Shown here: positions 8,901 through 60,193 of the stretch, piece by piece
How the letters are laid out: each line of letters begins with the position of its first letter
Numbering within the stretch: the stretch's first letter is position 1
Assembly (NCBI GenBank): GCA_014773175.1
Contig: VXCM01003110.1
Location: forward strand, 1 to 64,000
Origin: Lucifuga dentata
Lineage: Eukaryota; Chordata; Actinopteri; Ophidiiformes; Bythitidae
DNA length: 64,000 bases
Direction of reading: 5' to 3'
Translations under genes and position numbers: made by a program
Notes under the pieces: model-generated
Databases searched by the model: none
The model's input: only the letters and a program-made list of their open reading frames with translations
What the model was told of the DNA's origin: nothing

Positions 8901-9238
8901 ATCATGCTCTATTTCTGGCTGCTTCTATTTTCACCACACCTCTCATCCAATCACGTCTGTCATTTGTTCCCACAGCTGGAGGAGCTCAGCACCTCCATGT
9001 ATCCTTTCCAAACTGAGTGACTATTTATAGGAGTCAGCGAGCGCTCTGTGTGAATGATCTGCTTTTTAAAAAAAAAAAACNACTATTTATAGGAGTCAGC
9101 GAGCGCTCTGTGTGAATGATCTGCTTTTTAAAAAAAAAAAACTTCAGTCATTTGGCATGGATCCTTAACGTGCCTCTACTCAGACAAAAACTCCACTTGG
9201 CTGAAAATCAGGACCTGCCCAAAACATCCGGACCCTGA
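5977..9238 (+). CDS. ccdc28b: Coiled-coil domain-containing protein 28B
   Basis: There are five coding exons: 5977-6212, 6697-6866, 7092-7246, 8976-8998 and 9184-9238. Phases fit and give 212 residues (human about 200). The start MEDKRKKRSPK matches the family N terminus. The core QHSFLTDVSDVREMEGG, LLNLLNDFHSGKLQAFG and FEQLEHVREMQEKLARLHF is the CCDC28 domain, predicted helical. The LGLPQPPSPK stretch favours paralogue B. The mammalian protein (MGC1203) interacts with BBS proteins and mTORC2 and modifies Bardet-Biedl syndrome and cilium length. The last exon gives IQKLHLAEN, the conserved tail. If the weak donor AT|gtatcc is skipped, the protein would instead stop at 9020. An ATG at 5845 is in frame but sits upstream of the acceptor at 5899, so it was not used. 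Confidence 0.9.
6497..6519. repeat. (TA)n microsatellite
   Basis: This is a short alternating TA run in the first coding intron of ccdc28b. Confidence 0.85.
7356..7836. mobile_element. TTAA-flanked inverted-repeat element, copy D
   Basis: It is bounded by TTAA at 7352-7355 and 7837-7840. The ends read AGGGCCAAACTGG and CTGGTACAGTCCT, diverged but symmetric. It keeps 'ttactgccgaccattttcc', the 'cctgggactatatttcc' block and 'ggctgcctggaaggtaggaaaaac'. It lies in the intron 7247-8975 of ccdc28b. Confidence 0.75.
9020..9142. repeat. Duplicated 61-mer around an N (assembly artefact)
   Basis: Positions 9020-9080 and 9082-9142 are identical and are separated by a single 'n' at 9081. The copies end in a poly-A run. 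They inflate the last ccdc28b intron (8999-9183) from about 123 to 185 bases. Confidence 0.85.
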
Positions 9239-14541: not shown

Positions 14542-17500
14542 GATTCAATCTCATGTTATATCTCCATCAGTCTGAAAGCAAGCGTGTGTGTGGGTGGTGG
14601 TGCGTTAACGCTACAATGTCATAACAAATCATGACAGCACATTAGCAGAGCAGACATCTTATTTGCCCATGCTCCGTTAGCTTCGAAATTCTATTTAATG
14701 ATCTGAAATTTTCTATAAACAAAAACCTGCTAAAGGACCAGTTCATCTATTCATAACGCAGCATGCCACTGCTGAATTTGCCAGATCTGCTGGCGAACGA
14801 CACACCGTTCCACTTACCTGAGCTGTGGGACAGGAAGGGTCTGTTCCTGGTGAGGCTTGGGGCCCTCCTAAGGCGAGGTGGATTTTTGGGGTTTGGGGGA
14901 ACTGTGGGAGGACTTGGCTGGTGGGGTGGAGAGAAGCACTTGGTGGGGCTTTGGGGTCCTGGTGGGATGACGAGACTGGTGGGGCTGATGGAGNGAGAAG
15001 CACTTGGTGGGGCTTTGGGGTCCTGGTGGGATGACGAGACTGGTGGGGCTGATGGAGGACTCGTGGTGGGGGAGGTCTGCCTTAGTGCAAGTCAGCGTGC
15101 TGCCATTCAAATGCAGATCTGCAGCGGAGAAGAGAATTCTTTCAAGTCTGCAAACAATGTCTGCTGCATCATTTCATGTGTCATTTCATCTCTTTAAATG
15201 GATTTAAAATTCATCAGGACAAGGCTCAGCAACACGTCAACAAAATGTTTCAAAACTATTACCTGATTACTTGTTATGTTTTATAGTGAATTAAGACATT
15301 TTCCCCCATAAATTGATTTTAATTGTCTAAGCATTTTATATAGGAGTAAAAATAAAAAATGCTGCTGGAGGTTTCTGAAACATTTTCTTGCCTTTGATAA
15401 TCAACACTGTGTTCTCCTCAGTGGGCACGTCATACAACATCTGTCTCACGCGGTGGCGAATCTTTTCTCGTGCAGGGTCCTCTTGGCCAAATTGCCCTTC
15501 TGGCTGATCCATGCATTGAAGCAGCATCTTGTCACGGGTAGGCCTCGCGTTCTTCTCCCTTTCCTATGCAAATGTGGGTGGGAAAATGCTCAAAGCTGTA
15601 CTTTGGATAATTGGAAACTTTCGAAGAATTTGATGTGGCTTACTGCTGAGCAGAAGCGGCACGAACCTTAAGTTCATTTGGATGTGGGCTGTCGTTGCTA
15701 TCTAGGTGGCTGCCAGACAGAGTGAAGCTGTAGATGTCTATTGAGGGATCACTAGGGGGTTTAGCCACCAAGGTGGCCTGCTCAAATGACATGGCGACTC
15801 CTGGACGGCTTGGGGACGCCGCAGAGCCAAACACACCTAAACATTGAGGGATGGTTGCATATAATTTAAACATACAAATGGAGAGGTGTAGACCACGCTG
15901 ACATGCTGAATTAAATCGTGATTGTGATGTGATTACGATTGTATGTGGTGAAAGAATTATTGGAAAACGAGGTCTATCGCAAGCTGCTTTTTGGCCGCAT
16001 TTCTTTGCAAACCAAACTAACTTTCGGAAGCGCCGTGTGGTTTCTTATAAGCTGCTGTAAAACGTGGTGCTAAACTAGAACAGTGTGACAGCAGACCAAC
16101 ATTAGAAAGAGAATGATGGCACATAAGGTCATTGATAAAGATGTGCAGACTGACCTTTTCCAATGACTCCTTCAGGCATGTCTGTGGCTGGCGAGTTCCT
16201 GCTGCTGCTGTGGCTCTGAGATCCTAATGGGCAAAGGAGATACTGAATTAATAATGACTAGAAGATACAAGCGACAGAGAGCAGAAAGGTTTTTAAGAAG
16301 AGATTTTTAAGTACTGGACTAATGAAATGTTGAAAAGTGGTCCTAGTCTATATTTCTATGCAGCGCAAGATTAAAAATAGGCCGCTGGCTGACCTTTGAC
16401 AGGCTTCAGAGCTCTGATTGGTTCACCACAGGATAGCTTGACCAAGGAAGGGGACGGACCTGTTGTACAAATCTCTTCCTCAGTTCTAATTGTTCCGTTT
16501 GAGTAAGCGACTCTCTGCCCCACAACACCCACCTCAGGTGACAAGTCATCTGTCAGAGAAATCCCTTGGGGAAAAAAGCAATGAATGAAAACTCAGATGA
16601 GATGCAGACCGACACGATGCAGCAGCAGCAAGGTCAATTCTTCTTATTTATACCTTGAAGGCTGCTGAAGTCCATGGATACAGAACCCCTCAGTTTTGCA
16701 GAAGGCATTCTTGCAACGCGAGGCTTCCTCGCTGAAGAGGCAGAGCTTCTCGGACTGTTGACAAGTATGACGAGTGAGATGTTACTGCATGTTGGAATAT
16801 CAGTCAACACCTCCTCGTGCAACACCGCGTGGTTATCAGATCGCTGCTTCACCTTCTCACCAGGTTTGGAATAACATTCGCTCAATTAGCTGAGACCTAG
16901 CAGACTAGAGAAACACAGCAAATGGCTCGAACACGAATGGCTCAAAATTCTTTCTGCTGGACAGTCATGAAAGCAAACATGAAGCAGCATAACACTGAAT
17001 AAAATGTTGCATCTTGTAAAAAGTTGTATCTGCTATATTCTCTTTGAACATTGTATATCTGTTATATTTGCTTTGTATTTTATGTCATTGTGTTTGTTTT
17101 TATGACTGCTAATTTGTAACATCCTGCCCAGGGACTGCGGCTGAAAATGAGCCTTTTTCTAAATCTGATACGTTTACACCAGTTGATTAATGTACATAGT
17201 CCCTGCGAAAATAAATCAGTAAATCAAAAGCACGCCTGAGCTGTCTGATGTCCTCGCACAGTCCTCATCAAACAGCTAATTATGCATTAAAAAAAAAAAT
17301 TCTACATGAACATGACACAAGTATGAACCACACATCTTAAAATGTGAAGGAGTTACAGTATATAGTAGCTACAGTAGTTATGGCGGTGGCAAAATAATAC
17401 AAAAAAATCTAAACTCTGCTATAAGATGTTGACATTTTACCTGATTTTGAGGCCGATGACGGTAGAGTTGGTGGGCGAGCACAGACTGGAAAGGCCGCTC

Positions 17501-25670: not shown

Positions 25671-28600
25671 ATGGACCAGCAGGACCAGTCCTATATGTTC
25701 GCCAGTTTGACACGGCCTCACTCTGAGCAGTTGCTGCAAGGCCTACAGCTCTTGCGACAGGATCACGAACTGTGTGACATTGTCCTGCGTGTGGGTGATG
25801 CCAAGATCCATGCCCACAAAGTAGTTCTGGCCAGCATCAGCCCTTATTTCAAGGCCATGTTCACGGGTAATCTGTCTGAAAAGGAGACATCTGAGGTTGA
25901 ATTCCAGTGCATCGATGAGACAGCCTTGCAGGTATGTCTGGAGTCAGCACATACTTTTTTAAATTCTCTGAAAAAATTGCTGTAACCTCTTAGTTTATGT
26001 GATACATTTACAAAAACTTTTACTCTTTATCTTCTAGGCCATTGTTGAGTATGCATACACTGGCACTGTGTTTATCTCCCAAGAAACAGTAGAATCTCTG
26101 CTTCCAGCTGCCAACTTACTCCAGGTCAAGCTAGTGCTTAAGGAGTGCTGCTCCTTCCTAGAAAGCCAGCTGGATGCTGGGAACTGCATAGGCATCTCTC
26201 GTTTTGCTGAGACTTATGGTTGCCATGACCTGTGCCTAGCTGCAACTAAATTCATCTGTGAGAACTTTGAGGAAGTTTGTCAGACAGAGGAGTTTTTTGA
26301 GCTGACGAGAGCCGAATTGGATGAAATTGTGTCCAATGACTGCCTTAAGGTGGTGACGGAAGAGACTGTATTTTATGCTCTGGAATCATGGATCAAATAT
26401 GATGTAACTGAGAGACAACAGCACCTGGCTCAGCTACTGCATTGTGTGCGGCTTCCACTCCTTAGCGTCAAATTTCTCACTCGCCTGTACGAAGCCAACC
26501 ATCTTATACGAGATGACCATGCGTGCAAGCACCTGCTTAATGAGGCCCTTAAATATCATTTTATGCCTGAGCACCGGCTCTCTTATCAGACAGTTTTGTC
26601 TGCACGACCCCGGTGTGCCCCAAAGGTACTGCTTGCAGTTGGAGGCAAGGCTGGACTGTTTGCAACATTAGAAAGGTAATAATCTATAAATCACTTTTGC
26701 AAAGGTTACTTTTGAAAATTCTGGACTGCTGATGTCTTTCTGTCTTTGTTTTACAGCATGGAAATGTATTTTCCCCAGACGGATTCTTGGATAGGCCTTG
26801 CCCCTCTCAGTGTACCCAGATATGAGTTTGGAGTGGCAGTGCTGGATCACAAGGTGTATGTAGTGGGAGGCATTGCCACACACATGAGACAAGGCATTAG
26901 CTATCGGAGACACGAGAGCACAGTGGAGAGCTGGGACCCTGAAAGCAACACTTGGTCCTCAGTGGAGCGTATGGCTGAGTGCCGCAGCACTCTTGGGGTG
27001 GTGGTCCTTGCCGGAGAGCTGTATGCTCTGGGAGGCTATGACGGCCAGTATTACCTCCAGTCGGTGGAGAAATATGTACCCAAGCTGAAGGAGTGGCAGC
27101 CTGTAGCANCCAGTATTACCTCCAGTCGGTGGAGAAATATGTACCCAAGCTGAAGGAGTGGCAGCCTGTAGCACCCATGACAAAGTCCCGCAGCTGCTTT
27201 GCCACAGCCGTGCTGGATGGCATGGTGTACGCTATCGGAGGCTATGGTCCAGCCCATATGAACAGGTACTACTACTACTACTACTGAGACTGGTTTGGTG
27301 CTTTGTTGTTGAAAGGGCCACTTCACCATTTTCTTCACAGTGAGAACTGCGGATTATCCGGAATAACTGGGATGCTGTTTCTGGAAAGCCATGGTGCCAT
27401 TACATTTTTCAAATGTTATTTTTCAATCATTTGAACATACTTTACATACTAAATTTCACTGGAGGCAGAAGGGTCAGTGGTTGGCAAATGAACAAATCTG
27501 GAGGGCTAGATACAACTAATGGCAAGAGGGATAAGTTTTTTGCAAATTGGGTATGCTGGCCCTTTGGAATCATGAGTGAACTGCTAATGGGTTTTACAAT
27601 ATTAAGCAGGGATTATTCAACAATACATATGGGGAACTTAGACTAAGTTTTATAAAGGGAGTAATGAAGTTCTTTGAAAATCAGAGAGACAAAAGCAAAT
27701 TAATTTAACACCTAATATGTGTTATTACACTGTTAAAGGCAAAATACATCCCCTGTCTGTAGACCTGAGACAGCAGGTTTAATGTATAGGTTACGTAAAG
27801 GTTTACCAGTTTGTACTGCTGCTGTACATGTTACCCAACATTTAACTCATCACAACTGATCCTAATGTTTGTCTGTCAACTTTTGGTTATTATAGTATAC
27901 CTCTTTTCATCGAAGTGCTATCTATCAAAGTTTATCTATGATTTTTGGTCCACAGAAAGCCCATAGGATCAAACATACCGCTAACTTTTCTTTGTTCCCG
28001 CAGACGGCATTTGACATCAATGATCCTCTCACACCTTTTTTATAATATAGCTTTTGGATAATGGGAAAGCTTCTGTCCCCTTTAAGATCTCCTAAATGGG
28101 TTTTCTCTCTCAAGGTCCTGCTAGTTGTTTAATACAGATAGCAATCAAGTGAAGGATGTCAAGTGGGGCTGAGAAAATGGCTGGTGGACTGCTAATGAGT
28201 GAAGAGGAATCTTAACTGACAGAAGTGGCTGCGGGTTGGTGGTTAGACCTCTGTTGTTGCTGTGGCTCACTAAAGAGAGTCGTCTCTGTTGTTGCTCGTC
28301 TCCTTGACTCCCCAAACCCCTCAGGAGAATGTGTGTTTGGACAGAGAATCTTAAGGGACTGTTTTTTTGTTCCTTCCCCAGTGACTTCTGTGTCCCTACA
28401 TATTGCAAAACAATCACAAATCGGAATTATTCTGGTAGATGTCTGGGGTTTCATTTGGTGTGGTAACTCACAACTGCCATAGATAGCCTCATTAAATGGG
28501 TTGCACTGGTTATACAGTCACACCACCTGTTAGCCTTTAGCTGCTTTCCTTTCTGTAGTTTCTGTTAATACTACCTATAAGAGCATTTATTGCTCCTGTT

Positions 28601-29955: not shown

Positions 29956-32900
29956 CCCATGGCCCAGCTGGGTAGGACCCCATGAGAACACTTAGACACA
30001 AAAACGTTTATTTTTGTTGTCTCCTTCTCCTCCTTCACATTCATCCTCCAGGGGCAGAGGAGTGTTACCCACCAACACCGATACACAAAGAGAGAGAGAG
30101 AGAGCCCGCTGGGTGGATGGATGTGCCGGGNTACCCACCAACACCGATACACAAAGAGAGAGAGAGAGAGCCCGCTGGGTGGATGGATGTGCCGGGCTAG
30201 CTGGCCGGCTGGCAGAGGGTCACAGCTGTAGCTGGAGAGATGAGGAAGAGCTGTGCGTTTGCGCGGATAAGAGAGGAAGGTGATTGGGCGGCTGTCGTCG
30301 CGGACACGAGGAGACCACCGCTTTACTGCTGCTGGACCACAATGAGGACCTGAGCCATTTCCCCAGAGGATTGTGGGAGAAATCTGCCACTTCTGTTTCT
30401 ACGTTGGTAGAGTTTGTTTTTGTTAATGGCATTATTTGTGTTAACATTTCAATTTTTTTTTTTTATTTGTTTGTTTTTTTCATTTCCCTGCTGCAACCAG
30501 TATCACATTTAAATTTTGTAGAACCTTGCAGTTTGCTTGTGTATTTGTATGAACATGTGGTTGTGAACCATTTAGTTTGTGTGTCTGCGTGTTTGCCTGA
30601 TGGGTACGTGCATGTCAGATATGATTGCTTTTTATTACGTGTCTGCGTGCAGAACTGACGCTTGGGCTCAGCGACGCGGAGGTTTGCACACCGAGTCCGA
30701 GACCTCTGCGTTGAAATCAGTGCTTCACAAACTTCGAGAAGTTGGAAATCTTTATATTTTCTCAAAGGGCTGCTTTTTCCTCTCTTGTAAATAGTCAAAA
30801 TGAAACACACAGATAAGAGTATATCCTCTGCATTGCCTGTAAATGTTGTTTTTCTGCACTGGGTCATAAGTGTGAGTGTGTGCGCGCAACTCGATTCAAG
30901 GGGGAATGTAGATGTAAATGGCAAACTAACCCCGTTGAATTCTCCTGAGCGTTCACCACTATATCTGTCATCCTTGGAGAAATCCTCATGTTGTAGCTTG
31001 TGTCGCGTCGTGCTGAGGTCAGATCATGCATTTGCAACTTCTCATGGTTGTTCAAATTGACCATGGCCCTGTTTCACCCTTTGGTCAGTACACAATACCA
31101 ACTGGTGCTATATTTAGGATTCAGGATTCACAATGAGGTCAACCTACATTCAGCCTCTGTTATGGTATTGTGGTTTATGTTAGTTGGTTTATGTGCATTT
31201 AAACACTCAGAATCATAAAGACCCCCCTNCCCCCCCCCATCACGCAATAAGTCAAAGCACTAAGTCCCAATGAAAGGAAAGACTGGTTAGAGAACTGCAA
31301 ATGTTTCTCCTCATAATTTCCTCAATATGTAAAGTAGCACTATGCTTTTTTTTTTTTTTTTTTTTTTTGTAATAAATATATGGTAACTGGTAATTTTCTG
31401 CTTCTGAAGAAATGCCACATGGCTTCCCTGACACATTGTCTCTGTTGCAGGATATGAGCACGCTTTGTTGTCTCAAAATATCTGTTGTCAGTACATTTTG
31501 TCTCTCTTGCTCTTCTGGTTTTCTGCCAGCGATCAAGTCTGGCACCTTCTATTTGCTTTCCCCAACCCACCACCAAATGTGATCTTCATGTGGCCACAGT
31601 GTTGCTGGCAAGCTCAGGTTCAAGTTAATCTGTTCACAGCTCCATGTGAAGTGCCAAAACATGACCTCCTTTTTCCAAATCTGAGGTTACTTTCTCACCC
31701 CCAGTGCTAGAAATGGCTTTTCATCCATGTGTGCCACCATTGCAACATTGCTTTTTTTCTTCTTTTTTTTTTTTTTTTCNTTTTTTTTTTTTTTTTTCGC
31801 TAATCTATTAGCATTACATTCTTCCATGCTGTCATGGAGATAGATGATAAAGCGCCAAGGGCTGTACTAGCCAACTCAGGCCAAGCTGCCACTGTCGCCC
31901 ATCCTGCAGGACAGAAACCAGACCAGCAGACTCTGTGTGCTCCCCTGGATGTGTCCAAGTCCAGGAGGACTGAGGGTGTCTGTGCAGCTATGGGCTAGAC
32001 TGAAGGGGCTGGCTAAGCAATGGACAGCAATAGATGGAGCAGGTGTGGTGTGTTTTGTTGAGTTATTTGAGGCTAGTTTGAGCTGCATTGCACAGTGATG
32101 TTTGCACATAAGTGGAATCTTTGAAGCAAGCTCTGCATTGCACTTATAAAATGATTTGATAGTAATTTGTACATGTCTTAATTTAGGCTGAAAGCATTTA
32201 CACAATGCAATAAGACTTCTGTTCCCTTTGTGGATTCATGTTTTGTGTTTAGTCTCTTTATAAAGCCAAAGCATGTCCTTGCTGTAGTGACACGGTAAAT
32301 TTCCTTCATTCTACCAGGTAAATTTGTGAGTCCTTGTAATTATGTTGTGCATGTTTGTCATTTGTTTTTACAAGGCATATGTTTCCTCAGTCAAATTTAA
32401 ACCATTTCTTCATTATTGGCCAAATGGAGGTATATATCTTTGCGGTATTCAGCAGATTTTGCCATATTTAAGTCTTGTAATTTAAATGCTAGACAGGACA
32501 TGTGCTTCTACTTAACCCTTGTACTACACATTTAATTGTTGTATACATGATTATGTATAATTTGTATACATGACTATGTATAATTTCTTCTCCAGATCTT
32601 TAATGACATTTGCCTTGCAAATTAGTCAGTGTGTCACTGGTGAGACATTCAGTTTGTTGCAGATTGTTTGCATTACCATGTGTAGAGCTGTCTACTTTCC
32701 TGTTCATTTTGAGCGAATAACGTGTAACTAAACACAACCCAAGCTTCTTTCTACAAATGTGACTTCAGAAACATGACTGATGTTTTTTTGTATTTATGAT
32801 TCTAATTTGTATTCATGTTCTGTTAACATCACAGTCTGATTTACGTTTAACTGTCTCGTTTTAAGCCTACTGTAATAGATACTATGTTGGTCACTGCAGC

Positions 32901-37948: not shown

Positions 37949-50936
<12,988 letters not shown>

Positions 50937-51742: not shown

Positions 51743-52316
51743 ATCACCCTAAAGGAAGCCACGTGCTGTATTTATTTATTGCTGTATTTATTGTACTATT
51801 GAGTCTGTATAGTTATGTGTTATGTGTGAATCTTCAGACAGAGAAAGTGACTGGTGATCCTTCACTTTATTAGAAATGCAGGTGAGTGACATTATTCTGG
51901 GACATTTTTTGTTTGACATGCATAGTACAAAAGTAGAATGAGTCATTCTTCAGAATAAATTAAAGATACCTAGAAATGTCTCAGCTAAAAGCATTTAAAT
52001 CAATCAAGTCTTATTTTCTATATACAACACACCTAAAGTTTAATCATGGTGCATTTACTGTATTTAATTTCTTTTTTATTGCAGTGACTGTTCACTGATG
52101 TGAGTGTGGTTGGTTATTTCTTGCAGCGTGTAACACGTCAGTGATTGCATCACTATGGAAACCCATTTGCAGTGTTGCTGTTGGCGCTGGACAGTGGTGC
52201 AGACACGTACATGACATATAAACAACTGGAATCTCTTCACACCACTCATTATTCTTCCAAAATGTCAATCAAAAGCAAAATTATCCGGAGAGGATCATTT
52301 TCTGCAATATGACAGT

Positions 52317-53078
52317 TCAATTCCCTCCTTTAAGAAGCGGCCAAAAGCTCTCTGGAGGAACAGGACCAAAAAGCCTTCTCCTTTCTTCCAGGAGCAAATT
52401 GGAGAAACTAATGAGTACATTGAGGAGGAGATAATCATCCTGACTAATGAACATGCTGAAGAGATCATGACCGTGAGCATATACCCAGAGAATGAAGTCA
52501 GATGTCACTATTCTGAGATGCAGACACCGAGTGGAGATGTTGGTGCTGTAATGTTAGAGATCAAGCGCAGTGATGAAACTTCTGAAACTCCATCACATTT
52601 AAATAATAGCTTGAATATGACTGCAGGATCTCGAGAAGATCTGATAGGGAGTAAGGAGATTCAGATGGACTACTGTAGTGCCCAGAGTGGCACGGTGAGT
52701 CAGGATTGTGGCGAATGTCAAAATCTGGACACTTTAAACAAGCAAGAAGGGATAATCAGACCCATCATCTCAGCAGAAATTGCATCGCAGCATCCAAGAC
52801 TGTACGCAACATGCAACAACCACTCAATTCCCCAATGTGTTTCTGAAGAATCTATAGGTCTGCCGGTAAATGAAATACCAGCAGGCATTGTGACAGATAA
52901 TGTTGCAGTTATGGACAATTTTAGTTTGGACATGTTGCATAAAAAGTTGAAAGTCTTCAGTGAGGAAAATGCGGAGCTGCTAGAAACGGCGTGCTCTGTG
53001 GTTCAGGTTGCAATAAAAGCTGCACTGAACCAGTTTAAGAAGGAGCTGCTGGACACAGTTCCCAGTCTGGATCAGTAG
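52317..53078 (+). CDS. akap5: AKAP5-like A-kinase anchoring protein (start unresolved)
   Basis: An open frame ends at 53078. From 52317 it encodes 253 residues. Near its start is a polybasic stretch (SFKKRPKALWRNRTKK), like the membrane-targeting basic region of AKAP79/150. The C terminus carries ENAELLETACSVVQVAIKAA, aligning with the RII-binding amphipathic helix of AKAP5 (LLETA/VV/AI pattern), about 53048 at its end. IPAGIVTD (52875-52898) sits where AKAP5 has its calcineurin-docking PxIxIT-like site. The position right after mthfd1 matches human MTHFD1-AKAP5. AKAP5 scaffolds PKA, calcineurin and PKC at synaptic membranes. The frame is open back to 52215 but has no ATG before 52467, so a 5' exon is needed. 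Candidates are ATGCAG|gtgagt at 51886 spliced to an acceptor around 52292 or 52315. The protein is much shorter than human (427 aa). Confidence 0.7.
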   Translation, partial: SIPSFKKRPKALWRNRTKKPSPFFQEQIGETNEYIEEEIIILTNEHAEEIMTVSIYPENEVRCHYSEMQTPSGDVGAVMLEIKRSDETSETPSHLNNSLNMTAGSREDLIGSKEIQMDYCSAQSGTVSQDCGECQNLDTLNKQEGIIRPIISAEIASQHPRLYATCNNHSIPQCVSEESIGLPVNEIPAGIVTDNVAVMDNFSLDMLHKKLKVFSEENAELLETACSVVQVAIKAALNQFKKELLDTVPSLDQ

Positions 53079-54330
53079 GACTGACACCGTAAAGAATAAG
53101 ATATTATGTTTATGGGTACACACTGTGAAAAGCACTGACAGATTAGTGACAAAACTGACTAAAAAAGCCTCAGTATTCTTCTGTTAGATCATCTGATAAT
53201 GCCTGAAACCCTTTTTCTGTTTGACCATTTGGGAGAGGATGTGTCTGAAAAACTTTGTAGCTTTCCGACAATGGACAAACCAACAATCATGTTCACTTTG
53301 TGCAACCACTGGTCAAGTGTGCTGAAGTGTGAAAACAGAGTTTTAATTTCTTTCTCTCAAGCTCTCTTCTCCCTCTTCACATAACTACTTTTATGCTTAC
53401 AATCCTGTGCTACGCCATGACTACCTTCAAAGAGAGAAATGAATCGTTATCCCCATTAAATGATTCACCGTGTTGAGATCACAAGCAAAGACACTATTAT
53501 TTCCTAACAAAAGAAATGCCATAATAAAAATTAAGCTTAACATTAACCTTTAGCAGTTTATGAAGACACAGAAGACTTGAAATCATGGTGATAACATCTC
53601 CGTTCCTCTCTTTAACAGCAGACTTTTCACTGTACCTTTGGGTGTGGGCATTCTTAATAGGTGTGAACATAATTACATGATTACTTTCCTTTGTGGGCAC
53701 CAGCTCGTATAACCTGTTAAACCTTATAAAACGCTGCGTTCGACAATAACCACAACTTACTCTCCAGTTATTCTTGCACCAGCTAGCTATACTAACCTGC
53801 CAGCCAGAGTTGTTACAATTGCAACCTAATTGGTTATTTTCATTCTTAAAATAGATGTCCCAAACACTTATTTAAACAAACACAAAACTTTCCTTGTGTA
53901 CTTTTCCTTTACTGTGTAGCTCTGTTTCTTTCTTCTTAACCAGCAGAGAGGCTGCTTCCAGAGATCATCCAGAATTCACAAAACCAAGGTTACATTCAAA
54001 ACCCTCATTTTGCAGAGTATAGAATAGCTGCAATAATTTTTGTTTCACCTTTTATATGAGACTAGATCATCACATTTGGAATAATGGCACTGAAAACAAT
54101 CTTTGGTAGTTACCCAGAATTCATAACCACAGTCCAGACTGCCATGCCACAGCATGCCATGGACTGCCATGTTTTGTGTCTGTCCTTAATTTGTCTGTCC
54201 TTAAGGTAGATATGTCAAACTGTCATTTTTACCTGTAGGAACACCCAACCTCACCTGTTCTGCAACTTTCATTCAGTAAGCTGTGGGTGTAGCACTTATA
54301 CGCCCACATTCTTCATCTCATATGGTGCCT
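53079..54330. other. Intergenic, nothing recognised
   Basis: This AT-rich spacer lies between the akap5-like gene and the mini-gene. I see no conserved ORF, element terminus or RNA gene. Confidence 0.5.
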
Positions 54331-54338
54331 TATAAATA
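54331..54338 (+). promoter_or_regulatory. TATA box of the RGG mini-gene
   Basis: TATAAATA lies about 25-30 bases before a presumed cap site near 54360. A short 5' UTR exon ending at the donor CACCAG|gtatgt (54387) follows. The next acceptor (ttttctctag or tag-cag, 54472/54475) leads to the exon with the start codon. Confidence 0.6.
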
Positions 54339-54515
54339 CAGAGAAGACACACCTATAAGTGGCAACCTTTCATATCGTTACACCAGGTATGTATAGTCAA
54401 TAATTACCTGTGGCATTGAATAATTGCTAACGTAACGACTCAATTTTTAAAACCATCTATTATTTTCTCTAGCAGTTTTTTCCTGCTGTACCTGTCAACT
54501 TGAAGACAAATCAAA

Positions 54516-55561
54516 ATGAGTAGTAGCGGTAAGTCTTGATTAATTATTCATTTTTTTAGGATTGCTTTGAACTCGTTTTCAAATCTGCAAAATTAAAAAA
54601 AAAAACAAAAAAAAACAAAACAATTAAGACTAAGGTTAACACATGATACTACCATACAAATCTTTACTGTACTTCTGATATTGAAGCTTAAATTGACTTG
54701 GTCATCTTCAGTGATTATGTATTATAGTAGGTATAACTGAAATATTACAGTAACATGTGAACGGAAGAAATATGAGAGTAGCCTATATGCTATGTACATT
54801 TAAATTGTAAGTCATATTTGAATAATTTCCCCACTAATTCATGACCTGTACAACACTAATCAGTGTTCAGTTTTGATTTTTTTTGTTTTACAATTTTATA
54901 ATCAGTACTTCATATTCAAAGGCAGCAGTGCCTAAAAACCTGTGCACTAATGGAGGGATAATCAACTTGCTTGATGTCTTATGTCTTTTGACATCACTTT
55001 AAATTTTGTTTTATTTATTTCCTGTATTAATTCAAATATAATTTTTCTTTGTGTTTTGTTGCATTACAGAGAGCCAGGTGAGTCATTTTGCTTATAAACA
55101 GTGCTTTACATGTGAATGAAATGACATGACACTGAAGAAAATTCCTAAAAGACGTGATGTTCCCCTCTAGGGTGAGAAGGGGGAGGAAATGCGAAAAGAT
55201 GAGGAAGAAGAGGAAGATTCTGATCCTAAATCTGACTCAGATGGAGTAAGACATCTTTCCTTTTGTTAATGTGTGCTTTGGTTTTTATAATGCTTTGCTT
55301 CGCCGACTTGGTGAGTTTCTAGCAACAGTGTTTTAATTTGATGTAATGTTTTACAGGAAAAAGGAGAGAAAAAAGTAAGTTTGCTCTACACATCCATTTA
55401 TCAGTCTGTGCTTTCAGAAATGGTTGCAATCATTGTTTTTACTGTATGGCTGCTTTCAGGATAAAGGGAGGAGAGGAGGAGGACAAGGAGGAGGAAGAGG
55501 AGGACGGGGAGGAGGACGGGGAGGAGGACGGGGAGGAGGACAAGGACGTGGCACCCCCTGA
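54516..55561 (+). CDS. Small acidic/RGG-repeat protein (unrecognised)
   Basis: There are five coding exons with consensus GT-AG sites: 54516-54528, 55070-55077 (8 nt), 55171-55245, 55357-55374 (18 nt) and 55460-55561, giving 71 residues. The order is MSSSESQGEKGEEMRK, an acidic run (DEEEEEDSDPKSDSD), a lysine-rich link (EKGEKKDKGRR), then a Gly-Arg domain built of GGGR/GGGQ units ending QGRGTP. There is no signal peptide or membrane segment. The composition suggests a nuclear or RNA-binding low-complexity protein, by analogy with RGG/GAR domains only. A TATA box at 54331, a 5' UTR intron and an AATAAA at 55619 support a real transcription unit. I do not recognise an orthologue. The last exon is also open in another frame that would be acidic, but splice phase selects the RGG frame. 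Confidence 0.6.
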
Positions 55562-55618
55562 AGAAAACGTTGATTTATCATTCTATGACAACGAATGCAT
55601 AACATCGAATACATTACT

Positions 55619-55624
55619 AATAAA
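55619..55624 (+). terminator. Polyadenylation signal of the RGG mini-gene
   Basis: AATAAA lies 58 bases after the stop codon and is followed by a GT-rich stretch (cttgtttattgtttgttgg), as expected for a 3' processing site. Confidence 0.65.
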
Positions 55625-56739
55625 CTAATCCAGAAAACAGCAAGTCTTGTTTATTGTTTGTTGGCATAATTGTTCAGTCAGTAGTAAACTGAAAATCTTA
55701 CCTCTCTATGACCTCTTCCACTTTTGATGTGTCTTTGTTGGTACAGCAGAAAAAGAAATTAATAGATGGCTTTCAAAAGTTGAATAATTTAGTTTTCTTT
55801 CATTGCAAGTAATCAGCAATACTGATTATAGATACCCGGTGTGGCAATAAGAAGAGTGCATTTTACTGGTGTGTTCTGTCTCTATTTTTAAAGCAACATA
55901 TAAGATGAAGAATTCTGGCATGTAAGTGCTAAACCCACAGATCACCTACTGACTGTAGACTGAATGAGATCTTTTCTTTTTTAAATGTATGAATATTTTG
56001 GTTGACATAGCAGATGTGGAGCACACGACAAGCTTTTCAATTCTTGGAAGATTCCTCCGTGTTAAAAGGGACCACACCTGTTATATAGGTTATCTGTGTA
56101 TCTTAGTAAGATGTAGGCATAGCAGCATCAAAAACCAAACCAACATGAAAAACCAAATAGCCAGTAGTTTGAAACAAAGGTTTAACAGTGCTGTCCAGGA
56201 GCAATGTCATCATACTGTATTTTGCGTGTATCTTCTGCATTCGATCCATAAGAAATCATTTCAGTTCCTCTTTTCTGGCTCAAAATCTGTCTGAAAATAT
56301 TATCAATCTAGGAAGATGCACTGCTTTTAATGCACATCATTTCCCCCTCTACAGGCTAATTAATTGACTAAGATTTTTTTTAACCTTTATTTATTGGGGT
56401 GGGGGTGGGGGTTGTTCAGTTCACTGAGTGGTGAATGCTCTTTTGCAGAAACGCCCTGCCCACACACTCACACACAATGTTCACACCTGGAAGTCGTCCA
56501 GTACAACCACAGGCTTTAATTAAACGAATGTTTTAGATTCTCTTGATCCCAAGACTGGCTTTGACTCTTTAAAAGTACTACATCATCACTGATCTATCTT
56601 TTAATCATATTTGTTTTATAACTATATTAACTGGTAAAATCTCCAGAAGGCCACTCATTTAATTCCACTACACATAAGGGATCATATGAATGATCTGAAT
56701 AACTAAAGTTCTATTTCAAAATTACCTGTTTTCTCTAAA
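55625..56739. other. Intergenic, nothing recognised
   Basis: This AT-rich spacer has a short G-rich tract near 56397-56413. No conserved ORF or element end is seen. Confidence 0.45.
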
Positions 56740-57560: not shown

Positions 57561-57844
57561 ATATGGTATACTCATGTTTTTGTTTTGCTACGCCCAACAC
57601 TCCAAACCATAACAAAAGTAACACGCCTGTCTGCACATTTCACTCCAAAAATCCAGCTTCAAAAATCCAGGCCACACCTATTGTCATCTTGAGGTAAACA
57701 TACTGTAGCTCTGAAATTTGCACGTCAAGTGAATTATGCAGTGCACACAAAGACGAAACAGGTGTCTCTGAGTTATGACTGAAGGTTTACAGTTGGCTAC
57801 ACTCCCAATGCATTGTGACCTGAGCTGAACTGTCATTTCCACTA

Positions 57845-58542
57845 CAGGCCAGAAATTTGAAGCCACCCCCAGATTTAAAAAAAAAAAAAAAAAAAAAATC
57901 ATAAAATCATCAATATTCTGTTTGTTTTACAATTTATTGCACAGGAAATGACAAAAATATAAAAAATAAATGTAACTAATTAGTTTTCAAGAAAAATTTG
58001 TCAACATAAAAGCACTTTGAAGTCATTTCAGGCTCAGACTTTGGTTTCATCAAAGTAACCCCCTCTGGCCAAGTCATAACTCTCAAAACCTTTAGCTTCT
58101 CCTTTGAATGGATGTAATTTTGGCATAATTTTGATGAATGTTTTGTATCATTGTCCCATTGAAGAATGCAATTTTGACCAATAATTTGTAAACCAGATGG
58201 AATCACATGTCTTTGAAGTATGGAATTATAATTCTCTTTCTTCATAATTCCTTTAACTTGGACCAAGTCTGTTAAAACGTGCAAGCAAGGGAGTTTGGCC
58301 AAGGGAGCTGGAACACAACTGGAGTGCCAGTGCACTAATACAGACAGGGCATACCTTCATTAAAAATCATTTCTTAAGCTACAGTGGCTACATAATGTGC
58401 TCTTGTTGACAAATTCTTCTTGAAAACTAATTAGTTACATTTATTTTATATATTTTTGTCATTTCCTGTGCAATAAACTTTAAAACAGTGTACTGATTAT
58501 TATAATTTTTTAATCTGGGGATGGCCTCAGACTTCTGGCCTG
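57845..58542 (-). mobile_element. Internally deleted Tc1-like element
   Basis: It is flanked by TA (57843-57844, 58543-58544). Both ends start CAGGCCAGAA as inverted repeats, with CCCCAGATT conserved near base 30. A second inverted block (ttattgcacaggaaatgacaaaaatat) follows. The minus-strand ORF 58335-57976 is the C-terminal third of a Tc1 transposase (VKGIMKKENYNSILQ, LQWDNDTKHSSKLC). The final catalytic segment is degenerate, and the N-terminal DNA-binding domain is absent. At 698 bases it is under half the usual length and cannot be autonomous. Confidence 0.85.
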
Positions 58543-58544
58543 TA

Positions 58545-60193
58545 GTGTATTTAATGAGCTGCAGGAGTAAAAATATTACAACAACATCATCCTTATGTTT
58601 TCATCTAGCTCTGCAGTAATTAGTGTCAGGCTGGGCACATGTCTATAGGAACACCTCATCTCATTACACTCACCCTTCATCTGAATAAAGGTGCCTATTA
58701 TTGCCCTAAACTGTAGCCTACCCATGTGTATAAAAACAATCAAACCCTGTTAAGTCTCAGTTGTTAGTATTCACATTATTATAATGTTAAATTATAAACA
58801 TAGGCTTTTGTTGACCTGTGTATTGACCTGCATATGAGAACTGTGAAGTAGACAGTTCTGTGTTAGTATTACTTAAAAGTACATGAACTCAACTTGGTAA
58901 TACATCCCCACATTAAAAAGAGTCAGCCACTAAAAATCCAAACAGTTCAACTACTTCAAAACAAAAATACTTTCCAGTTTGTTGGCTACAAGGGCATGAA
59001 TAGAATACCAAGGGGAAGGATAATACAGTATAATACAGTATTTAAAAAAAAAAAAAATCCACGTATGTTTTGTNCAAGGGGAAGGATAATACAGTATAAT
59101 ACAGTATTTAAAAAAAAAAAAAATCCACGTATGTTTTGTTATTCAAGCATCTTACAATATGAGTAAGACCTGGATAGATGCTCCAGTTGACAAAGACGGT
59201 GGTGCCACCTAGTGGACATAGTTGTGAACAACAGTTTAATCTCTGCTGCTGTTTTTTTAACATGACGACATGATGGTGAATGCAGTTCGCACATGTGTTG
59301 CGTCACCACGGTAATTGCCAAATTTTTCTTCTTTTACGTATTTAAAGTTTTACAAAAACAAATTTCCCATATCCCTACAAGCACAACCTGAAGTGTCAAG
59401 GTAATTTAAAGTTAAGTAAGTTAAAAGTCTGGTTTAAGATCATGTGAGAGTATTTTTTTTTTTCACTATCGTTATGTTTTAACTTTATCTATTAATGCGT
59501 CTATACTACAATAAAATTTAAAAAGAACGTACTTGGTGCCTGTGAACCAAAGTTATACATGTATTTACTAAAAAAAAATATTTAAAATTAGCCTTCCACA
59601 GATCTCAACTACAAATCCAATGCAGTGTTATTACCTACATATGTGGCACTAAGACCATTATCCACAATAAGTCGTCTTAAGGTTAGTTAGAATCGTTAAG
59701 CAAGGTTGCTGTTGAATACATTGTACAATATGGATAATACTGAACATTTTTATCATAACATTTATAATTTATATTATATATATATATATATATTAACATT
59801 TTAAAGCTCAGAAACAGAATAGGGATTTTGTTAAAAGCAAAATAAAATCGGTTCAGTGGCTGTCTCCTCACAGCAAGAAGGTTCTTCCAGGCCTTGTAGG
59901 GCCTTTCTGTGTGGAGTTTTATGCTTTAGTGTGATGACGCCTGACGCCAAGGGGCAACATTTTTTTTGTTTTTTCATTAATCCTTAAACATTCCAAATGC
60001 TTGAGGACCAAAATATTTTGTAAAGCGCTTTTGCTCGTTAGTAAGATTAATACAGAACATAGCCTATGCTATGTGAGCTTGAGTACGTCAACTCGGTACA
60101 CGTTTGCTGACTTGTGTTTGTTTCCATAATACTCTGAAATCTCAGAGCAGTAACACTCTAGTCTCGAGTTACTGCCTTGACTGCTGCAGCCTG
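58545..60193. other. Intergenic, with an N-flanked duplicate
   Basis: No gene is recognised. A 65-mer at 59009-59073 is repeated at 59075-59139 around 'n' at 59074 (assembly artefact). A TATA-like TATAAAAA lies near 58729, without a supporting ORF downstream. Confidence 0.5.

Follow-up and report, generated by a model that had tools for sequence, protein, structure and literature searches.

In a 64,000-nucleotide stretch of a contig from Lucifuga dentata (hereafter, the window), the Cuban cave brotula (Ophidiiformes, Bythitidae), we describe a candidate mini-gene at 54,330-55,624 on the plus strand. In the full reading that we prefer, it would be a real, unannotated, very short and intron-rich gene, whose protein is gated by the inclusion of a microexon; we regard this reading as evenly balanced between being right and wrong. 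Judged from the DNA, the mini-gene is probably real and unannotated, with a predicted coding capacity and a putative function, and the best reading is that it is either lineage-restricted or overlooked. The parts of the model, from the TATA box and the noncoding exon through five in-frame coding exons to a poly(A) signal, would together give an mRNA of ~365 nt, predicted to encode a protein of 71 amino acids. The reading is supported by the optimum splice chain, by the strong donors of the noncoding exon, the start exon and the microexon, by the AATAAA with its U/GU-rich word, and by a 5′ module that was found at this locus alone, where it is duplicated locally. Counting against it are the lack of a protein relative, the weak donor of exon 3, a frame that can be open by chance and an RGG tail made of a GGA repeat. 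The first-pass annotation of this DNA, in which the mini-gene was proposed, did not include the 5′ module in inverted copy, the GGA repeat that underlies the RGG exon, the weakness of the donor at exon 3 or the synteny.

Gene model and splice chain

The proposed model was found base for base in the window. The positions of its elements and of the surrounding features are given in Table 1.

Table 1. Elements of the mini-gene, its duplicated 5′ module and other features of the window
Feature	Position	Strand	Remarks
TATA box	54330-54338	+	TTATAAATA; TATAWAW occurs here at 0.90 per kb per strand
Noncoding exon 1	54360-54386	+	putative start, ~30 nt past the TATA box
Start exon	54473-54528	+	ATG at 54516; 13 coding nt (54516-54528)
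8-nt microexon	55070-55077	+	AGAGCCAG; required by the frame
Acidic exon (exon 3)	55171-55245	+	75 nt, 25 codons; weak donor
Exon 4, EKGEKK	55357-55374	+	18 nt; frame kept when skipped
Last coding exon (exon 5), RGG tail and TGA	55460-55561	+	102 nt including TGA
AATAAA	55619-55624	+	58 nt past the stop; U/GU-rich stretch downstream
Arm A, 5′ module	54211-54546	+	upstream region, promoter, noncoding exon, 5′ UTR intron, start exon, donor
Arm B, inverted partial copy of the 5′ module	55682-56009	-	from the alignment to arm A
Open frame between MTHFD1 and the mini-gene	52215-53075		287 codons
Left side, in order			Tmp39-domain gene, CCDC28-domain gene, TOG-domain gene, BTB/BACK Kelch-type gene, MTHFD1
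Right side, in order			DUF4594 gene (CCDC9B-like), InaF-motif gene (INAFM2), PI-PLC-X gene (PLCB2-like)
N-centred tandem duplications	1904-2033, 9020-9142, 14927-15059, 27045-27177, 30066-30196, 39632-39767, 59009-59139		

The five coding exons with compatible phases, as they had been proposed, were reproduced in their coordinates and in the 71-residue translation. Dynamic programming was used to find the highest-scoring spliced chain from ATG to stop within 54400-55640, with splice matrices based on the general vertebrate consensus and a minimum exon of 6 nt. The optimum, at 15.71 bits, consisted of exactly these five coding exons. The minimum was set at 6 nt because the unrestricted optimum of a first scan (17.05 bits, reached by 0 of 300 shuffles) contained a 1-nt exon. 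None of 1000 dinucleotide shuffles reached 15.71 bits (median -2.1, maximum 12.66).

The same score was reached by 11 of 354 same-size windows (1241 bases, in steps of 620 bases) across the 110,706-base contig on both strands, a scan in which the whole mini-gene need not fit any single window. Nine of the 11, when assigned by position and strand rather than by the exons of each chain, lie on recognised genes (TMEM39-like, TOG-domain, MTHFD1, CCDC9B-like and PLCB2-like). The high-scoring segment at 86801 (+) is unassigned, and that at 44366 (-) is probably false, because it is antisense inside MTHFD1. Thus, with no shuffle reaching the score and nine of the 11 high windows on recognised genes, the mini-gene region scores like a gene. 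The open frame alone is weak evidence, since exons 3-5 are T-poor: at least 71 codons remained open in 123 of 5000 whole-transcript shuffles and in 562 of 5000 per-exon shuffles (2.5% to 11%).

Consensus splice sites had been described for the model. This description holds for the donors of the noncoding exon (CAG/GTATGT at 54387, 5.68 bits, top 0.64% of GTs), the start exon (GCG/GTAAGT, 5.86 bits) and the microexon (8.76 bits, top 0.05% of GTs), the last being the strongest donor of the mini-gene. However, the exon 3 donor, GGA/GTAAGA, is weak; its 0.45 bits are matched or beaten by 9.7% of the GTs on the plus strand of the window. Similarly, the donor of the proposed 5′ UTR intron was confirmed, but the acceptor is ambiguous, being either before 54473 or at an AAG before 54507; the latter is also present in arm B. 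The assumed 5′ UTR contains no ATG, and the coding frame starts at the first ATG that the assumed transcript contains.

At the 3′ end, AATAAA words occur here at 0.98 per kb per strand, and the combination with a U/GU-rich word was counted eight times on both strands of the 64-kb window. Together with the chain statistics, this combination supports, at the sequence level, the earlier description of a complete small transcription unit. The last coding exon is built on a GGA repeat (55467-55540). A second open frame, which is acidic (EEEDKEEEEEDGEED...), traverses this repeat at 55460-55625, passes the RGG stop and reaches the poly(A) signal. It was rejected as an alternative frame through exon 5, since it extends across the poly(A) signal and exon 3 joins a different frame. 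Upstream of the mini-gene, at 53638-53740, a second TATA-like box (CCTTATAAAAC) was observed with a similar CATTCTT word; blastn detected no similarity between it and the mini-gene promoter, and no good donor was seen there by eye.

Predicted protein and its dependence on the microexon

The predicted 71-residue protein, MSSSESQGEKGEEMRKDEEEEEDSDPKSDSDGEKGEKKDKGRRGGGQGGGRGGRGGGRGGGRGGGQGRGTP, contains neither Cys nor His. The net charge is -9.6 in residues 1-40 and +6.7 in the RGG tail, and five RGG and one RG were counted by eye in the last 32 residues of the translation. By the definition of the class (several RGG triplets close together), the closely spaced triplets place the predicted protein among RGG/RG-motif proteins. 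Nucleolin and SERBP1/HABP4 are RGG/GAR-motif RNA-binding proteins with acidic stretches. The predicted protein is like them in having an RGG tail after acidic and lysine-rich stretches; in contrast to them, it has only 71 residues and no folded domain, and the likeness is one of low complexity only. From its composition, the product is predicted to be a disordered, charge-segregated protein that would bind RNA via the RGG tail and would be methylated on arginine.

Both statements of the first-pass annotation on exon skipping agreed with our translations. Skipping of the 8-nt exon gives MSSSG followed by a stop, the immediate stop that had been expected, whereas the frame stays intact when the 18-nt exon is skipped. 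Since translation would halt after five residues without the microexon, the protein would be made solely when the microexon is spliced in. Microexon inclusion is thus a putative on/off gate for the protein.

SRRM3/4 targets are described with a UGC upstream of the acceptor and a strong donor (PMC10551640). The mini-gene exon resembles SRRM3/4-dependent neuronal microexons in its length of 8 nt, the UGC at -10, the guanosines in the pyrimidine tract and the strong donor. However, it differs from them in that its length is not a multiple of three and its skipping kills the frame, and its acceptor (3.14 bits) is not much weaker than those of the neighbouring exon 4 (2.51 bits) and exon 5 (3.31 bits). 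A TGC was found at 75 of 463 comparable AG sites within -12..-4 and at 142 of 463 within -20..-4, and the exon 5 acceptor also possesses one, at -9. Because 75 of the 463 sites and exon 5 share this element, neural regulation of the microexon is a guess.

Relatives and genomic neighbourhood

With the predicted protein, no Pfam family was detected, and the PDB gave weak low-complexity matches only (best E 0.03). Rfam showed nothing at gathering scores in the 64-kb window. A protein collection was searched for candidates that share exact words with the query and have 0.55-1.75x its length. With the whole protein, 7992 candidates were scored and none was accepted at E up to 10; with residues 1-44, the one candidate was rejected at an E cut-off of 1. 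Fish proteins are numerous in the collection, including those of L. dentata itself (an INAFM2 query gave 622 proteins, and many of the best 120 are from named fishes). The scoring step accepts the predicted protein itself, and in a test of scoring only, random variants at 60% identity were accepted in 10 of 10 cases for the whole protein and in 7 of 10 for residues 1-44. Finding no relative makes a well-conserved gene less probable. Within these limits, the searches support the earlier remark that no named family was known for the protein.

When the genome was searched as DNA with 54250-55660, the 34 matches obtained comprised the mini-gene itself, 30 matches in the GGA repeat and three in an A-rich intron stretch. 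Eleven loci from this search were translated and viewed by eye, and no acidic-plus-RGG gene of the mini-gene layout was seen among them. Since arm B, 70% identical and on the same contig, went unlisted in this search, distant paralogues may escape it. Among the papers listed on a small fish RGG protein, PHGR1, CCDC9B, microexon or orphan genes and the neighbouring genes, no title or abstract dealt with the mini-gene. Within the reach of these searches, the mini-gene appears unannotated, and it would be either lineage-restricted, fast-evolving or commonly missed. Deposited data include an L. dentata transcriptome (GIAU00000000) and reads of the sister species L. gibarensis (PRJNA610231), as given in PMC7826195.

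The DUF4594 (CCDC9-type) gene starts ~9 kb to the right of the mini-gene. The InaF-motif frame of this contig matches an L. dentata protein with 100% identity over 93% of the query. On the other side, the open frame next to MTHFD1 is one that we tentatively take for AKAP5, as its terminal amphipathic helix resembles the RII-binding helix of AKAP5; no Pfam family at cut-off and no PDB match were obtained for it. A synteny break is present near the mini-gene on the MTHFD1 side.

Two further features of the window were observed. At least seven of its 20 single Ns lie in the middle of near-perfect tandem duplications of 62-68 bases, which look like an assembly gap-closing artefact; the N at 27109 is inside the Kelch-type gene, and the reading frame is broken there. 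At 57840-58547, nested inverted repeats of 116 nt (84%) and 51 nt (82%) surround a minus-strand frame, which on visual inspection resembles the remnant of a Tc1-type transposase; a Pfam search with this frame detected no family.

Inverted copy of the 5′ module and rival explanations

Arm B lies 42 bases beyond the predicted mRNA end, just past the poly(A) site. The two arms share 70% identity over 336 positions, and their local alignment score is 211, as compared with 64 or less in shuffles (n=500). A wider alignment pairs 53933-54608 with 56285-55647, the outer part being weaker. Arm B has no start ATG; a TATA-like run is retained in it, as is a GTAAG donor, which lies at 55701 on the minus strand. 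No coding chain was seen behind it by eye among the listed minus-strand splice sites. The identity between the arms is 0.89 in the start exon and donor, 0.79 in the core promoter, 0.69 in the noncoding exon and 0.68 in the intron body. The excess at the functional elements is not significant, as 19 of 335 circular shifts equal it; with this result and the value of 0.69 in the noncoding exon, selection on arm B is not shown. Arm B would have arisen when the 5′ half was duplicated locally in inverted orientation, and this inverted promoter copy may drive an antisense transcript.

Four other explanations were weighed against a real, microexon-gated gene. It is possible, though rather unlikely, that the transcript is spliced and untranslated, or that the chain is a chance series of splice-like sites around the GGA repeat, with an ORF left open by T-poor exons. 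The 562 per-exon shuffles with 71 open codons, the weak exon 3 donor, the protein searches without a relative and the one high window of 11 that is probably false, antisense inside MTHFD1, are all consistent with this. However, the chain score was reached in none of the 1000 shuffles, and nine of the 11 scanned segments with at least this score lie on recognised genes. We think it distinctly unlikely that the locus is a relic, left by an inverted duplication of the 5′ half of an earlier gene at this place, with one copy, or both, now in decay. An arm B with neither a start ATG nor, by eye, a coding chain behind it, and an identity excess equalled by 19 of the 335 circular shifts, would agree with decay, and gene loss in cave fishes is described in PMC7826195. 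Against such decay, the copy at 54211-55640 carries no lesion in the frame, the splice dinucleotides or the poly(A) signal.

The mini-gene could also correspond to PHGR1 of mammals, with a sequence that has changed too far to be recognised; this idea is a variant of the preferred explanation and compatible with a real gene, and we consider it very unlikely. The mini-gene adjoins CCDC9B-, INAFM2- and PLCB2-like genes, and CCDC9B, PHGR1, DISP2, INAFM2 and PLCB2 are listed at one locus on human chromosome 15. In human coordinates, PHGR1 points away from CCDC9B, whereas the mini-gene points towards the CCDC9B-like gene; the nearby synteny break on the MTHFD1 side also argues against the correspondence. 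PHGR1 is likewise tiny, with a 434-nt mRNA, four exons and a low-complexity, Pro/His/Gly-rich protein of 82 amino acids that has three conserved cysteines and a lysine (PMC5803922). The mini-gene shares with it the CCDC9B neighbourhood, a tiny mRNA, several small exons and a low-complexity protein, but the fish protein, having no Cys and no His, is not Pro/His/Gly-rich and lacks the three cysteines. The two genes are alike in place and style alone, with no sequence similarity shown. A DNA transposon or foldback element, with the arms as terminal inverted repeats, is disfavoured and seems highly improbable. The arms are indeed inverted repeats, and the ~1.8 kb between their outer ends and the arm length of ~330 bases are proportions similar to those of Tc1 elements. 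However, dispersed copies were not found: a 31-base core-promoter pattern written from both arms matched, with up to three mismatches, the two arms only in the 598-Mb assembly (the reversed control gave 0 matches), and arm B had no other match in a search by which arm A, too, went undetected, and which could therefore overlook copies of ~70% identity. Moreover, no transposase was recognised between the arms. The arms look like a local inverted duplication and not like a dispersed transposon.

The preferred reading of a real gene can be extended to an undescribed fish gene that is absent from the searched collection, makes its microprotein only where the microexon is included, and is flanked by sister promoters whose sense and antisense transcription could cross-regulate; this extended picture is unlikely as a whole. 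Small microexon genes easily escape annotation. If the mini-gene is unexpressed, it would serve as a useful caution, showing how closely a gene can be imitated by splice-like sites that surround a purine repeat. If it is real, a further orphan microprotein, disordered and under a clear splicing switch, would be added, and the two promoters in inverted orientation would be a natural test of convergent antisense control.
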